NCBI RefSeq assembly: GCF_000147715.2
Contig: NC_017934.1
Location: 310,001-374,000, forward strand
Reading direction: 5' to 3'
Source: Mesotoga prima MesG1.Ag.4.2
GTDB lineage: Bacteria > Thermotogota > Thermotogae > Petrotogales > Kosmotogaceae
DNA length: 64,000 nt
Positions 25,726-31,698 of the stretch are shown here, piece by piece (within the stretch, counting starts at the first letter, position 1; the number at the start of each line of letters is the position of its first letter). The notes under the pieces were generated by a model. The model saw only the letters and a list, made by a program, of their open reading frames with translations. It ran no database searches and was not told the DNA's origin. Made by a program: the position numbers and the translations under genes.

Positions 25726-26400
25726 CCTGTCGTTCTCTGAGAGAAGCTGCCAGTCTCCTGGTCGTAGCTCCTCAGATAGACAGTAAGATCCAATCCGCCT
25801 TCTATGCAGCTGGATTACTTTGTTTCCTGATGCAGAAACAAGTCGCTTTACCTCATGGTATCGGCCTTCCGTTAGAACGATCCTCATATGAAAGTGATCG
25901 ATTTGCTCGACATGAGTCGGCTTCGAAAACTCATTGTTTCCAATGAAGAGCCCTTGTGAAATCATGGAAATCTCTTTCTTGGTTATCTCTTTGGCTGTTT
26001 CCACAAGGTATTCCTTTTCAACAAGCTTTCTGGGCGAAATCACTTCGTGAATGAACTTGCCGTCGTTAGAGAGTATCAAAAGTCCCGTTGCGTCCTTGTC
26101 CAACCTTCCTCCAGTTGACAGATCTGCCGAGAAGTTCGCGTCGATGAGTTCGAATACGCTTCTGCCTTCGCTTCTTTCTCTTGAGCAAACGTAACCTTCA
26201 GGCTTGTTAAGGGCAATATAAACATTCCAAAAAGCCTCTAGAGGTCTTCCGTCAACAATGACAGTGTCTGTTTCATCAACTACTTCAGAAGGATTGTTCG
26301 TGAGGACTCCGTTTAGACTCACTCCATTGCTTCTAATTATTCTCCTGCTTTCACTTCGGCTGAAGCGCCCAAATCTCGACACAAAGGCGTCTAGTCTCAT
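25705..26400 (-). CDS. RsuA/RluB-family pseudouridine synthase
   Basis: The enzyme (231 residues from ATG 26400) has an S4 domain at the start (MRLDAFVSRFGRFSRSESR) and the RsuA-type catalytic aspartate in GGRLDKDATGLLILSNDG (about 98-115), with KEYLV and GRYHEVKRLV further on. It modifies a uridine in 16S or 23S rRNA; which one is uncertain. An earlier in-frame ATG exists at 26421, but the promoter elements at 26407-26435 place transcription at or next to ATG 26400, and no ribosome site is present, so the mRNA is probably leaderless. Confidence 0.9.
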   Translation of the reverse strand: MRLDAFVSRFGRFSRSESRRIIRSNGVSLNGVLTNNPSEVVDETDTVIVDGRPLEAFWNVYIALNKPEGYVCSRERSEGRSVFELIDANFSADLSTGGRLDKDATGLLILSNDGKFIHEVISPRKLVEKEYLVETAKEITKKEISMISQGLFIGNNEFSKPTHVEQIDHFHMRIVLTEGRYHEVKRLVSASGNKVIQLHRRRIGSYCLSEELRPGDWQLLSENDRKKITGT

Positions 26401-26406
26401 ACATAG

Positions 26407-26435
26407 ATTGTACAACACCATTTCTTGGGATACAA
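26407..26435 (-). promoter_or_regulatory. Promoter predicted to give a leaderless mRNA
   Basis: On the minus strand TTGTAT (26430-26435) and TACAAT (26407-26412) are 17 bases apart. The usual seven-base step from the end of the -10 lands exactly on the A of ATG 26400. No purine-rich ribosome site lies in between. Confidence 0.65.
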
Positions 26436-26466
26436 GTCGTCAACTTCTCCGGGCTATTGGTCAGAA

Positions 26467-26475
26467 TGGTATAAT
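26467..26475 (+). promoter_or_regulatory. Extended -10 promoter of recJ
   Basis: TGGTATAAT is a perfect extended -10 element (TGnTATAAT) 35 bases before the recJ ATG. No convincing -35 lies upstream, as expected for this promoter class. It is divergent from the RsuA-type promoter, 54 bases away. Confidence 0.7.
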
Positions 26476-26509
26476 CTTCTCAAAAGAAAAAAAGAGAGGG
26501 TGGATCTTT

Positions 26510-29500
26510 ATGAGAAAGGAGTGGCTTCTCCTAAAGCCCGATGATGAGGCCGTAAACAGATTGGTCGAATTCATGGGCATTGACGCTTTTTTGGCGAGAT
26601 TACTGGTAACGCGTGGAATAGATAACGAAGTTGAAGCGATGAAGTTCCTGAATCCCGACAAGACGATTCTCCACGATCCTTTCCTTCTTGAAGACATGCC
26701 TTTGGCGGTTCGTACGATCATCGAGACCCGCGATAGAAACGAAAGCATAGTCGTCTTTGGCGATTACGATGTCGACGGTGTGACGAGCACCGCACTCCTA
26801 TACCTCGCAATGAAGAGGATGGGATTCAATGTTAGCTATTACATTCCTCTGAGACTCGAAGAAGGTTACGGATTGAGCAAGGACGCAATCAAAGATTTGA
26901 GGGATCAGGGGCACAGCCTCCTCATAACCGTAGATTGCGGAGTCACTTCCTTTGACGAAATCAAGTTCGCAAAGGAGATCGGATTCAACGTTGTTGTTAC
27001 GGACCATCACGAAGTGAAAGATCTCCTCCCGCCTGCCGACGCAGTTGTCAACCCAAAGAGGCCCGACGACGATTATCCTTTCAAAGGATTGGCCGGGGTT
27101 GGTGTGGCCTTCAAGTTGCTTGTCGCTTTGAACGAAACCCTTCACTGTCCTATAGATCCCGAGGAGTACCTGGATATTGTGGCGCTCGGTACGATTGCGG
27201 ATATAGTACCTCTAAGAGATGAGAATCGCTACATTGTTAAAGAAGGAACGGCAAAGATTCAGAGCAGTCCGCTACTCGGATTAAAAGCGCTTCTTTCTTA
27301 CCTGAGAATTCCTTCGGAAAACCTTACTGCACAGGACATTGCATTCAAGATTGCCCCAAAACTCAACGCTGCGGGAAGAATGGATTCAGCAATTGTGGCA
27401 CTTGAACTATTGATTAGCGAAGATATGGATTCGGCAATGAACACTGCTAGCCGTCTATTGAAGCACAATCAGAACAGACAGACTATCGAGGCGAAAATCT
27501 TTGAACAAACGGAAAGGGATCTTGAGAATACTGCGAGTTTCAAAGACGATTTCGCGCTGGTTATAGATGGCGACAACTGGCATCTGGGAGTGCTTGGGAT
27601 TGTCGCGTCAAGACTCGTGTCGATTCACAACAAGCCGGTGTTCTTGATAGCTACAAACGGCTCCGATGGAAAGGGTTCCGCAAGAAGCCCTGCCGGTGTA
27701 AGCATAATAAGCCTGCTTAACGAGGTCTCGGGTCTGTTGAGGGAGTTCGGCGGGCATGAGATGGCGGCCGGTTTCAGTATTGACAAAGAAAAAATATCGG
27801 AATTCAGGTCTGCAATTAACGATGCTTACATAAAGCTATACGGTTTGAAGCAGCCGGTTTTCAAGATTGACGTTGACGATGTTCTTACTCTTGATTCTAT
27901 TACCCCCTCGATACTCGATAAGCTTGAATTGTTGAGACCTTTTGGGCATTCCAATCCCGAGCCGAAATTCTTGATCAAAGGCTTGAACATTGAAAAGGCA
28001 AAGATGTTTGGTAGCGGAAGCGACCATGTGAAACTCATACTGCGCTCTGGAGACCGAAAGACTCTTGCAATAGGTTACAACATGGGCACCATGTTCGATG
28101 ATTTCAAGTATGTCAAGCCAAACCTTCTCAAGGTAGACGCCATTGCCTCTATAAAGAATGATAATCTTTATGGACTGCAGAGTGTAAAACTTTCCTTGTC
28201 TGACGCGAGGTTGTACATTGATCCCGTATTCGAAGAGGAAGTTAGAGACAAGAACTTTGTCTTTGAGTTCATAAGAGACTGGAAGAACCAACAACCGGGC
28301 TTGCAGATTAAGTCGGACGTCTCGGCGCTAATAGCTGAACTGGAGAAGAAGGTGTCACATAAGTGTCCGGAATTCATGGACGTAAGTGCGAAGAATCCCT
28401 GGGGAATCTTCGGTAACATAAGGCTGAAGAATCCGTTCCTTGCGCTCAAGATTCTGAAGAATTATCAGAAGGGCAAGAGAACTTTCATTGTTTCTGCCAT
28501 CAATGGCACACTTGCCCACACATATTATTCTTTGCAGCATTATCTGGATTCGATAAAGCCAATCTTTGCCAATTCACTTTACAGAGGCAAACTGGACGAG
28601 CCAGTTGTCTTCGTTACATTACCCTTCTTCGTTGAAAGATTCAACGAAATTTCGGATTCAGCCGGCGAGATAATCTTTGACGAACCGTCTTATATTCTTT
28701 CCGGCATATTTAAGGATCATCCAGACCTTGAAGGTTTCTTCAATAACATCGATAAAGTTCTCGGCATTTCCGGTTTTTCTGGAAGCATTTTCTGTGATGA
28801 CCTCAAAGAGTTCTTCCTGGACAAGAGAATCTCGCACGTGTATAAACCAAGTCCAATAAAGAGAGTTGGCATTATAGACAACCGCGGCTCGAGAAAGAAA
28901 GTGGAGCAGGTGATGTCAATAGTAGGCCACGGGGAAAATGTGGCAGTAATTGTTGACTCTCCTCACAAGACGGTTTCTCTTGCAAAATCTATGGGTTCAA
29001 GGTTGTCTCACGCTCTGCAAAACGGTGAACTGATTTTCTACAACTATCTTCTCAAGGATTTCCAGAGATCGGTTATCTACTCTCTTGTCGAAAGACAGAA
29101 GATTCGGGTCCTTATAACGACTCCTTCAAGTGATGGTCTCGGGGTTACACTGGGCAATTCAAATATTGTCTTTTACAGTGCTCCGAGAAACTTCCTGGAA
29201 GTAATCGATGCCGTTGCTACAAGGCCCGGTGAAGATTCCGAACTTTTCTTGAATCTCTCCTTCAACAAGGCGGACCTCGTTTCAAACACAAGCGAAATGG
29301 ACCGTTTGTTTCCCACTGTTGAGGAGTTGGAAGCCGTTTATCAGGACTTGAAAGAGGTACTCCCTGCGTCGGAGAGAGACATAAAGAAGGCTCTGAGCTT
29401 TGAAGACGGTATCTCTAAGGTCTTCCTCTCAATGCTTGAGGAAATGGAGTTGTTGAGTGCGGACAACGGTGTCTGGTACAGTAACTCGGAAGCAGCCCTC

Positions 29501-29653
29501 GACACGACACAGGTGAAGAAGACCCTGAGATACAGAGAAGGTGTGGCAGAGAAGAGAATGACGAGATGGTTCGCTACAAAGTTATCTACTATGACTACAA
29601 GGGGGCTATTAAGGAGTCTAACCAATGCCGAAGAGGTGCTGAAGGTTGGTTGA
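26510..29653 (+). CDS. recJ: Single-stranded-DNA exonuclease RecJ with long helicase-like tail
   Basis: RecJ digests single-stranded DNA 5' to 3' in recombination and repair. From ATG 26510 (seven bases after AGAGGGTGG) the protein has 1047 residues. The nuclease core is complete: GDYDVDG (84-90), LITVDCG, DHH (165-167), and the DHHA1 motif GGHEMAAG near 415, then the OB region to about 600. The remaining 450 residues are extra. They look like a decayed superfamily-2 helicase: EIIFDEPSYI near 720 recalls motif II, and VLITTPSSDGLG near 866 recalls motif V, but no intact Walker A is seen. Typical RecJ has 560-800 residues. Confidence 0.93.
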   Translation: MRKEWLLLKPDDEAVNRLVEFMGIDAFLARLLVTRGIDNEVEAMKFLNPDKTILHDPFLLEDMPLAVRTIIETRDRNESIVVFGDYDVDGVTSTALLYLAMKRMGFNVSYYIPLRLEEGYGLSKDAIKDLRDQGHSLLITVDCGVTSFDEIKFAKEIGFNVVVTDHHEVKDLLPPADAVVNPKRPDDDYPFKGLAGVGVAFKLLVALNETLHCPIDPEEYLDIVALGTIADIVPLRDENRYIVKEGTAKIQSSPLLGLKALLSYLRIPSENLTAQDIAFKIAPKLNAAGRMDSAIVALELLISEDMDSAMNTASRLLKHNQNRQTIEAKIFEQTERDLENTASFKDDFALVIDGDNWHLGVLGIVASRLVSIHNKPVFLIATNGSDGKGSARSPAGVSIISLLNEVSGLLREFGGHEMAAGFSIDKEKISEFRSAINDAYIKLYGLKQPVFKIDVDDVLTLDSITPSILDKLELLRPFGHSNPEPKFLIKGLNIEKAKMFGSGSDHVKLILRSGDRKTLAIGYNMGTMFDDFKYVKPNLLKVDAIASIKNDNLYGLQSVKLSLSDARLYIDPVFEEEVRDKNFVFEFIRDWKNQQPGLQIKSDVSALIAELEKKVSHKCPEFMDVSAKNPWGIFGNIRLKNPFLALKILKNYQKGKRTFIVSAINGTLAHTYYSLQHYLDSIKPIFANSLYRGKLDEPVVFVTLPFFVERFNEISDSAGEIIFDEPSYILSGIFKDHPDLEGFFNNIDKVLGISGFSGSIFCDDLKEFFLDKRISHVYKPSPIKRVGIIDNRGSRKKVEQVMSIVGHGENVAVIVDSPHKTVSLAKSMGSRLSHALQNGELIFYNYLLKDFQRSVIYSLVERQKIRVLITTPSSDGLGVTLGNSNIVFYSAPRNFLEVIDAVATRPGEDSELFLNLSFNKADLVSNTSEMDRLFPTVEELEAVYQDLKEVLPASERDIKKALSFEDGISKVFLSMLEEMELLSADNGVWYSNSEAALDTTQVKKTLRYREGVAEKRMTRWFATKLSTMTTRGLLRSLTNAEEVLKVG

Positions 29654-29906
29654 TACCCGTAAGCTGGATGCTCTGATAGTAGTCTCCCAAGGAGATATAA
29701 TCAAAGTTCTATCATTACTGAGGAATCATGGTTTCCAGACAAAGGTTTTCCCCACACCACCCGGTCTATTCCCCGGATGTTCGCTTTCCATCGCAGTTTC
29801 TTCAAATGTTGTCGATTCAGTTCTGGTGCTTCTCAAGCAACATAACGTAGAAGTTATGTATTCCGCTTTGTGCGATGAGAATCCCGTGAAGTCATTCTAT
29901 GATTAG
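29646..29906 (+). CDS. DUF3343 putative sulfur/selenium carrier-like protein
   Basis: The 86-residue protein matches the DUF3343 family, in which a single cysteine after a proline-rich segment is conserved: here TKVFPTPPGLFPGCSLSIAV (C near 45). The family is described as possible sulfur or selenium carriers on the basis of gene neighbourhoods only. The TTG start overlaps the recJ stop by eight bases, and ruvX overlaps its end by eight bases, so the three form an operon. Confidence 0.75.
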   Translation: MVDTRKLDALIVVSQGDIIKVLSLLRNHGFQTKVFPTPPGLFPGCSLSIAVSSNVVDSVLVLLKQHNVEVMYSALCDENPVKSFYD

Positions 29907-30609
29907 ACTGGGGATTGATTTCGGAACATCCAGAATAGGACTGGCATTACAGGTTGAGAACATCGAAATTCCTCTATTCGCAATAGATCACACCGGCTAC
30001 AAAAAAAATCTTCTGAGGATTATTGAGGAGAAGGGAATTGAGGAGATTGTAATCGGCCTCCCCATATCAATGTCCGGTAGATTCAGTGAGTCCACTCTGA
30101 AGGCCGTTTCATTTGCAGAGAAAGTCAAGAGTATCTTCCCTGGACGAGTATTCCTGGTCGATGAGACCCTTACAACCGAAACTGCCAGGCGTCTTTCGAG
30201 TGAGGCCGGACAAGACTTCTCTAAAGCGAGGGATGTTTTCAGTGCTATCCAGATCCTGCGGAACTATTCGTCCGGAATGTCGAAAAAATGGGAGGTAAAA
30301 GAAGAAAGAGGCGTTTGCAGAGACCTACCCAGGCTGGCTTCAGAAAGTAGAGTGTTGTTTTATAGGCCGCGATCTGCAATGATTGAAGGTCTTGATTGTC
30401 TTGAAACTGAGCCGGGTGTCCTTGTCGAGGATCCTCAAGTCTTCCTTTCTTTCGTAAGAAGAGGGATGAAACCCGTCAATATTGTTGACGATATTGACTT
30501 TTCATCTTACGATATAATAGTAATCGCTTGTGGAGAAGAGCTCGATGGGATGGTCGATCTGAACTCGGAAGGTCCGCAGGTTATTGAGTGCTCGTGGCTC
30601 AACGGATAG
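29899..30609 (+). CDS. ruvX: RuvX/YqgF-type RNase H-fold protein with extra C-terminal domain
   Basis: RuvX (YqgF) is an RNase H-fold nuclease linked to pre-16S rRNA 5' processing and, by fold, to Holliday junctions. The first 135 residues are typical: GIDFGTSRIGLAL with catalytic D7, IVIGLPISMSGR, LVDETLTTETA and ARDVFSAIQIL. About 100 further residues follow, with no resemblance I can name, although the codon pattern looks like coding sequence (FYRPRSAMIEGLD; YDIIVIACGEELDG). The TAG stop at 30607-30609 lies inside tRNA-Arg, so the last seven codons are also the acceptor stem and D arm of that tRNA. Confidence 0.88.
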   Translation: MIRLGIDFGTSRIGLALQVENIEIPLFAIDHTGYKKNLLRIIEEKGIEEIVIGLPISMSGRFSESTLKAVSFAEKVKSIFPGRVFLVDETLTTETARRLSSEAGQDFSKARDVFSAIQILRNYSSGMSKKWEVKEERGVCRDLPRLASESRVLFYRPRSAMIEGLDCLETEPGVLVEDPQVFLSFVRRGMKPVNIVDDIDFSSYDIIVIACGEELDGMVDLNSEGPQVIECSWLNG

Positions 30610-30663
30610 AGCGCTGGACTCCGGATCCAGAGATTGTGGGTTCAAATCCCACCGAGCACGCCA
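30588..30663 (+). tRNA. tRNA-Arg (anticodon CCG)
   Basis: The 76 bases fold fully: acceptor gtgctcg/cgagcac, discriminator G, encoded CCA, D arm ggctcaacggatagagc, anticodon stem ctgga/tccag with loop ctCCGga reading arginine CGG, and T loop ggTTCAAATcc. Its first 22 bases are also coding sequence of ruvX. No promoter of its own is visible, so it is probably cut out of the recJ-ruvX-mreB transcript. Confidence 0.96.
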
Positions 30664-30687
30664 TATAGGCAACGCGGGAGGTCTTGT

Positions 30688-31698
30688 ATGAAAAAAGGCG
30701 ATTTAGGAATCGATTTGGGTACCGCTTCTCTCTTGGTCTTCCAGAAGGGCAAGGGCATCGTCATAGACGAACCGTCTGTTATAGCTGTTGAAGCCAAGAC
30801 CGGAAAAATTATAGCGATAGGATCCGATGCTAAGGAAATGATCGGGAAGACGCCAAAGGATATCAAGGCGGTAAGGCCAATTCGAGACGGAGTGATCGCC
30901 GATTATCAGATAATAGAACAGGCCCTGAAAGATCTTGTTAAGAGGACCCGTACGAAGTTCTCTTTCTCGAGGCCGGCCGTTGTTGTCGGGGTTCCGGCGA
31001 AGGTAACTAGTGTTGAGAGAAGAGCCGTTATTGAAGCCACCACCGCCGCAGGTGCAAGTAAGGTTTACCTCGTTCTTGAACCCATCGCTGCTGCCATCGG
31101 AGCCGGTCTTCACATTTTTGATTCGGTAGGAAACATGGTTGTCGATATTGGAGGGGGGACCTCCGATATCGCGGTGATCAGCCTTGGCGGGATAGTTGTT
31201 TCGCGCTCCCTAAGAACTGCTGGAGATGCTATGGACGATGCAATAATCAAATTCGTAAAACGCAAGTACAAGTTTCTCATAGGCAGCTCAACCGCAGAGG
31301 ACGTAAAAACCAAAATAGGAAAGGCCTTTCCAACGCTGGAGAGTTTTGAACTAGAAGTACGTGGAAGAGACGCACTGAATGGCCTTCCCGGGAACATAAG
31401 AATCACTTCCGATGATGTTCACGAAGCCATTTCTCAGATTCTTCAGGAGATCGTATTGAATCTGCGCCAGATTTTGGAAGATACGCCTCCTGAGATCGCT
31501 GCGGACATAATGGATACCGGTGTGGTTCTTACAGGTGGTGGTTCCCTAATTAGGGGACTTCCAGACTTGATTATTCAAGAGACTGGAATAAAGACAGTTG
31601 TTGCAGAGGATCCGAGAACCTGTGTCGTAAAAGGTATAGGTGAGTTGCTCGATTGTGACAAGCGCCTTCATAGAGTCGCGATCAATCACAGTAAGTAG
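30688..31698 (+). CDS. mreB: Rod-shape determining protein MreB
   Basis: MreB is the bacterial actin that organises the elongation machinery under the inner membrane. The 336-residue protein has the phosphate-1 motif GIDLGTASLLVF, VVGVPAKVTSVERRAVIEA, the LEPIAAAIGAGL connector, the phosphate-2 motif VDIGGGTSDIAV and the adenosine motif TGGGSLIRGLP. ATG 30688 follows GGGAGGT by five bases; the open frame runs back into tRNA-Arg but is not translated. mreC and mreD do not follow, which is unusual; the opposing gene is a lipid transporter. Confidence 0.96.
   Translation: MKKGDLGIDLGTASLLVFQKGKGIVIDEPSVIAVEAKTGKIIAIGSDAKEMIGKTPKDIKAVRPIRDGVIADYQIIEQALKDLVKRTRTKFSFSRPAVVVGVPAKVTSVERRAVIEATTAAGASKVYLVLEPIAAAIGAGLHIFDSVGNMVVDIGGGTSDIAVISLGGIVVSRSLRTAGDAMDDAIIKFVKRKYKFLIGSSTAEDVKTKIGKAFPTLESFELEVRGRDALNGLPGNIRITSDDVHEAISQILQEIVLNLRQILEDTPPEIAADIMDTGVVLTGGGSLIRGLPDLIIQETGIKTVVAEDPRTCVVKGIGELLDCDKRLHRVAINHSK

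Follow-up and report, generated by a model that had tools for sequence, protein, structure and literature searches.

The ruvX coding sequence ends inside tRNA-Arg(CCG) in Mesotoga prima and in many other Thermotogota: an old overlap of a protein gene with a tRNA gene

In the window, that is, the whole stretch of 64,000 nucleotides of the Mesotoga prima MesG1.Ag.4.2 genome analysed here, the reading frame of ruvX runs into the tRNA gene downstream of it and stops there. This raises the questions of whether the protein gene really ends within the tRNA, how the arrangement is kept, and what may become of the RNA that the two genes share. An earlier note, made from the DNA letters, had placed the ruvX stop codon in the D arm of tRNA-Arg, a position borne out by ARAGORN and by the ORF list (Table 1). 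The pair consists of a genuine CDS whose stop lies inside a same-strand downstream RNA gene, and it belongs to a gap-free string made up of recJ, a small ORF, ruvX, tRNA-Arg(CCG) and mreB. The small ORF overlaps recJ (upstream) and ruvX (downstream) by 8 nt each, and three successive junctions of the string overlap.

The end of RuvX reads ...VIECSWLNG*. Codon 230 (GAG, 30586–30588) contributes its third base as tRNA base 1, and codons 231–236 (C S W L N G; TGC TCG TGG CTC AAC GGA) lie wholly in the tRNA together with the TAG. The seven shared codons counted by the earlier note are these six sense codons plus the stop, to which the third base of GAG has to be added as a correction. Among the 46 tRNAs surveyed in the genome, this tRNA is the only tRNA-Arg with a CCG anticodon. 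Its cloverleaf, CCG anticodon and encoded CCA, which are kept in relatives, are the sequence features of a functional tRNA, and its charging and expression are predicted.

Table 1. Features of the ruvX/tRNA-Arg region (positions in the window)
Feature	Position	Strand	Basis
recJ, given as its longest ORF; real start possibly internal	26258..29653	+	ORF list, profile matches
Small ORF, Pfam Se_S_carrier match, TTG start	29646..29906	+	ORF list, Pfam
ruvX (yqgF) CDS, 236 codons plus TAG	29899..30609	+	ORF list; Pfam RuvX; TIGR00250
RuvX C-terminal extension, ~113 aa past the core, same continuous conserved frame	30268..30606	+	19-protein alignment; AlphaFold2
Promoter-like matches inside ruvX (two, weak, overlapping)	30485..30521	+	Promoter scan
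Predicted RNase P cleavage junction, within ruvX codon 230 (GA/G)	30587..30588	+	From tRNA 5' end
tRNA-Arg(CCG), ends GCCA	30588..30663	+	ARAGORN
22-nt ruvX/tRNA overlap (tRNA bases 1–22)	30588..30609	+	Sequence; 10/10 genus genomes
tRNA bases 8–10: TGG (Trp233) here; TAG, the ruvX stop, in 40 relatives	30595..30597	+	
ruvX stop TAG, tRNA bases 20–22 (D loop/D stem)	30607..30609	+	Sequence
mreB, ATG 24 nt past the tRNA	30688..31698	+	ORF list, profile matches

The encoded protein is recognised by its core, residues 1–123, which matches PF03652 with 76.7 bits (cut-off 29.2, E = 2.8e-21). It scores 55.5 bits against TIGR00250 (cut-off 43.25), and its structural model matches YqgF/RuvX entries. 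At 236 aa it is longer than the usual single-domain RuvX of ~138–150 aa (solved chains), a length that is typical and not strictly defining. An alignment of 19 Thermotogota proteins indicates that the extension is common to most RuvX of the phylum, in which an extra C-terminal domain of ~80–110 aa carries motifs such as EDPQ and NLxDDIxFxxYDIIV. The C-terminal domain has no Pfam match and no solved relative covering it, and in Foldseek it drew only weak Rossmann-like matches with E values of at least 0.06. The AlphaFold2 model of the protein has a mean pLDDT of 87.7, and its last beta strand, modelled with moderate confidence (pLDDT ~73) at residues 227–231, ends on Cys231, the first codon that lies wholly in the tRNA.

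As the extension falls outside the RuvX models, it could be argued that a frameshift or mis-assembly has lengthened the frame, or that the C-terminal part is non-coding. This is very improbable indeed. Ten independent genomes share the frame and its end, which disposes of the frameshift that would place the stop upstream, as contemplated by the earlier note; the fold is confident, and the extension has a coding-type pN/pS of 0.26 in clade A. The 20 codons that directly precede the tRNA give coding-like pN/pS values (0.35–0.56) in seven of the eight overlapping clades and 0.90 in one clade of three genomes, where, judging from these ratios, protein constraint on the RuvX tail is weak.

How far the arrangement extends was examined by comparing the spacing of the two genes in relatives, as had been proposed. 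All ten genomes of the genus have a RuvX that is homologous end to end, at identities down to 52%, and the same 22-nt overlap. The class survey covered 99 Thermotogota genomes with a ruvX match, and tRNA-Arg(CCG) lies directly downstream of ruvX in 76 of them. Of these adjacent pairs, 40 overlap by 10 nt, 11 by 22 nt, four by 23 nt and two by 1 nt; a further two pairs abut and 17 are gapped, such that 19 of the 76 share no base. An overlap of at least 10 nt is therefore found in 55 of the 76 pairs, with 10 nt the commonest state, and the 22-nt state also occurs outside the genus, in G013. All members overlap in the families f1 (Kosmotogaceae), f3 (which includes Pseudothermotoga) and f11 (Thermotogaceae), as does every member of f2 that has this tRNA at ruvX. 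Marinitoga (g6 of f2) does not have it there. In two f2 genomes, G028 (L094) and G033 (L026), mreB directly follows ruvX with no tRNA between them, and ruvX has its own stop.

The earlier note had asked whether the frame ends before the tRNA in any relative. None does so within the genus or the family; elsewhere, such frames are found in f10, which is mostly gapped (16/20), and in the single f6 genome (1/1). The f10 relatives keep the same gene order with gaps of 4–51 nt. Because the frame ends before the tRNA in most of f10 and in f6, and the tRNA is absent from this place in other lineages, the overlap is dispensable across the phylum. On the RuvX tree, in which many deep branches are weak, a minimum of four switches into or out of the overlap is required. 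Taken together, the sequence comparisons indicate that the overlap is genuine, old and phylogenetically deep.

The overlap states can be read from the tRNA itself. In the 10-nt state, which uses the same frame as the 22-nt state, tRNA bases 2–4 encode Cys, bases 5–7 encode Leu, Pro or Ser, and bases 8–10 form the TAG stop, the last two RuvX codons being TGC CCG, TGC CTG or TGC TCG. The final two codons of RuvX, which would complete the last beta strand of the protein, thereby come from the start of the acceptor stem, and T8-A9-G10, strongly conserved in the tRNA, serves as the stop codon. TAG occupies bases 8–10 in 40 of 40 genomes with the 10-nt overlap, and TGG in 11 of 11 with the 22-nt overlap. 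The Mesotoga-like stop reads TGG because tRNA base 9 is G, and the tail SWLNG is most simply explained by a change of A9 to G, a direction which we infer from the sequences. In the Mesotoga-like lineage this change would have converted TAG to TGG (Trp233), and the frame goes on for another four codons before it meets an in-frame TAG in the D arm. A different frame is used in the four genomes with the 23-nt overlap, G037 (L027), G089 (L097), G090 (L100) and G045 (L148). It passes tRNA bases 8–10 and stops at bases 21–23, so that frame slips too ended inside the tRNA.

Cys231 is near-invariant in the aligned Thermotogota proteins, and a functional C-terminal cysteine was considered as an explanation. 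This was rejected. The residue is encoded by tRNA bases 2–4 and is lost where the tRNA is absent or separated, and is therefore imposed by the tRNA. In f10 relatives with a gap, RuvX terminates at roughly the same position on codons of its own, without Cys (...GKIILV*, compared with ...GKLVCL* in f11).

To see how common such endings are, same-strand ORFs were surveyed at the tRNAs of three genomes, namely the window's own (46 tRNAs), G094 (32) and G011 (35). In the window's genome, ruvX is the only same-strand ORF above 100 aa that stops inside any of the 46 tRNAs. The remaining upstream ORFs of such length stop at least 14 nt short of the tRNA, and one 76-aa ORF stops 13 nt short of one. In G094 and G011, ruvX is again the only recognisable gene with its stop in a tRNA, and other ORFs above 100 aa end at least 16 nt upstream. 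G094 also has a 92-aa ORF that spans two neighbouring tRNAs and seems spurious. Two endings on the opposite strand were also observed. A 172-aa NTPase_1 (PF03266) protein (L155:539-1057, +; G000 ~1,645,938-1,646,456), convergent with tRNA-Cys, has a CDS that ends 22 nt within the 3' end of the tRNA. Beside tRNA-Thr(CGT), a 170-aa antisense ORF (L077:1555-2067, −), which has no Pfam match and may be spurious, likewise ends 22 nt within the tRNA 3' end.

What may happen to the shared RNA depends on RNase P, which cuts at the 5' end of tRNAs. Co-transcription of ruvX, the tRNA and mreB is plausible, given how the ORFs join and that mreB begins 24 nt past the tRNA. The known cut site and the coordinates uphold the earlier prediction that the ruvX message, once RNase P has cut a shared transcript, would lack a stop; it would break off inside codon 230. 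The cut had been put at 22 bases before the stop, a distance that holds to the last base of the stop codon; to its first base it is 19 nt. On one shared RNA, translation of the end of ruvX would compete with folding of the tRNA and its processing by RNase P. The first ribosomes to arrive would complete RuvX, and the same molecule could still be cut later to give the tRNA, which amounts to a race; ribosomes that follow the cut would run off the non-stop end and be rescued by tmRNA, whose gene is present (G000:C1:1279870-1280220). While a ribosome stands at the stop codon, the 5' half of the tRNA would be hidden beneath it, so that translation and tRNA folding should exclude each other in time and not per molecule. 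The view of the earlier note that protein and tRNA are mutually exclusive products of one transcript is accordingly too strong, in that ribosomes finishing before the cut would still make RuvX.

This competition would rarely arise if the tRNA came mainly from a promoter of its own inside ruvX, with the ruvX mRNA and the tRNA precursor mostly separate molecules, so that RNase P seldom met the former. The promoter-like matches within ruvX speak for such an arrangement, and a promoter scan of the 1.2-kb region gave four matches against 1.2 expected. The matches within ruvX are weak (9/12), though, and lie in sequence conserved for coding (VDDIDF), and a scan cannot show function. We consider it less likely than not that the tRNA is made mainly from such a promoter.

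Another hypothesis is that the overlap is a selected regulatory switch, in which RNase P or tRNA folding sets the output of RuvX, or ribosome traffic on ruvX sets that of tRNA-Arg or mreB, and that it has been kept for this reason. It is consistent with the retention of the overlap in 55 genomes of several families with few changes, with an arrangement that is unique to ruvX among the tRNAs surveyed in three genomes, and with the presence of tmRNA. RuvX homologues have also been reported to act in 16S rRNA processing (PMC9601230), and a link to RNA maturation is imaginable. Nevertheless, f10 keeps the gene order with gaps and other lineages have no tRNA there, the overlap is not found wherever the two genes are adjacent, and there is no dedicated RNA structure, while protein and tRNA constraints are enough. 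A selected anti-tRNA structure was considered on the strength of a 161-nt fold (30540–30700) in which the 3' half of the tRNA pairs with ruvX sequence upstream of it. It was dropped because, in the window's genome, the tRNA folded with 80 nt of upstream sequence still gives the cloverleaf, and because, in nearly all genomes, the upstream sequence and the tRNA are complementary to a degree that shuffled sequences also reach. We thus regard a regulatory switch as unlikely. Quite improbable, too, is a conserved device in which RNase P maturation of the single-copy tRNA makes part of the ruvX mRNA non-stop, tying tRNA supply, ribosome traffic and the level of a nuclease of the rRNA-processing type together through 10–22 shared nt.

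The overlap is most probably an old unidirectional overlap in a compact gene string, kept by the constraints on the protein and on the tRNA. It would persist in that the tRNA cannot lose the shared bases, whereas a stop further upstream would trim the C terminus of RuvX. By computation, a stop would arise from ~5–6% of single-base substitutions in the last codons, and none of the 55 overlapping genomes has a stop upstream of the tRNA. We infer that the need of the protein for its last strand, together with tRNA constraint, would suffice for retention; regulation is possible but not required.

Comparable arrangements exist in other systems. In mitochondria, where tRNAs punctuate the transcript, a CDS may extend at its 3' end into a tRNA, which RNase P then releases from the common transcript, and a truncated stop can be completed by polyadenylation. 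The end of ruvX likewise runs into a tRNA expected to be excised by RNase P, but it would be cut several codons before any stop, yielding a true non-stop message. E. coli secG-leuU is a bacterial mixed mRNA-tRNA transcript that resembles ruvX/tRNA-Arg in having a tRNA directly downstream of a protein gene; its stop, as far as is known, precedes the tRNA, unlike that of ruvX. With unidirectional prokaryotic overlaps formed by stop-codon loss, as in a published model (PMC3887535), ruvX shares the use of the next in-frame stop inside a same-strand neighbour and the short length. It differs from the model in that the neighbour is a tRNA and not a CDS, which leaves no room for translational coupling and means that RNA structure fixes the shared bases; a cut in the shared RNA is also expected where the two genes meet. 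A literature search, itself incomplete, found no report of the ruvX/tRNA-Arg overlap; a paper on T. maritima genome organisation reports expression data for 46 tRNAs (PMC3636130).

The ruvX overlap is a variant of overlapping genes, one whose consequence at the RNA level can be tested, and a regulatory use of it is conjectural. It is a warning for annotation pipelines in which CDSs are cut back at RNA genes. For the Thermotogota, it provides a clear bacterial case in which a single piece of DNA has to close a protein gene and open a tRNA gene, an arrangement that relatives in several families have kept. At this defined site RNase P would be expected to encounter both translation termination and ribosome rescue, and whether tRNA processing competes with translation for the same RNA could be tested directly in cultivable members of the phylum.
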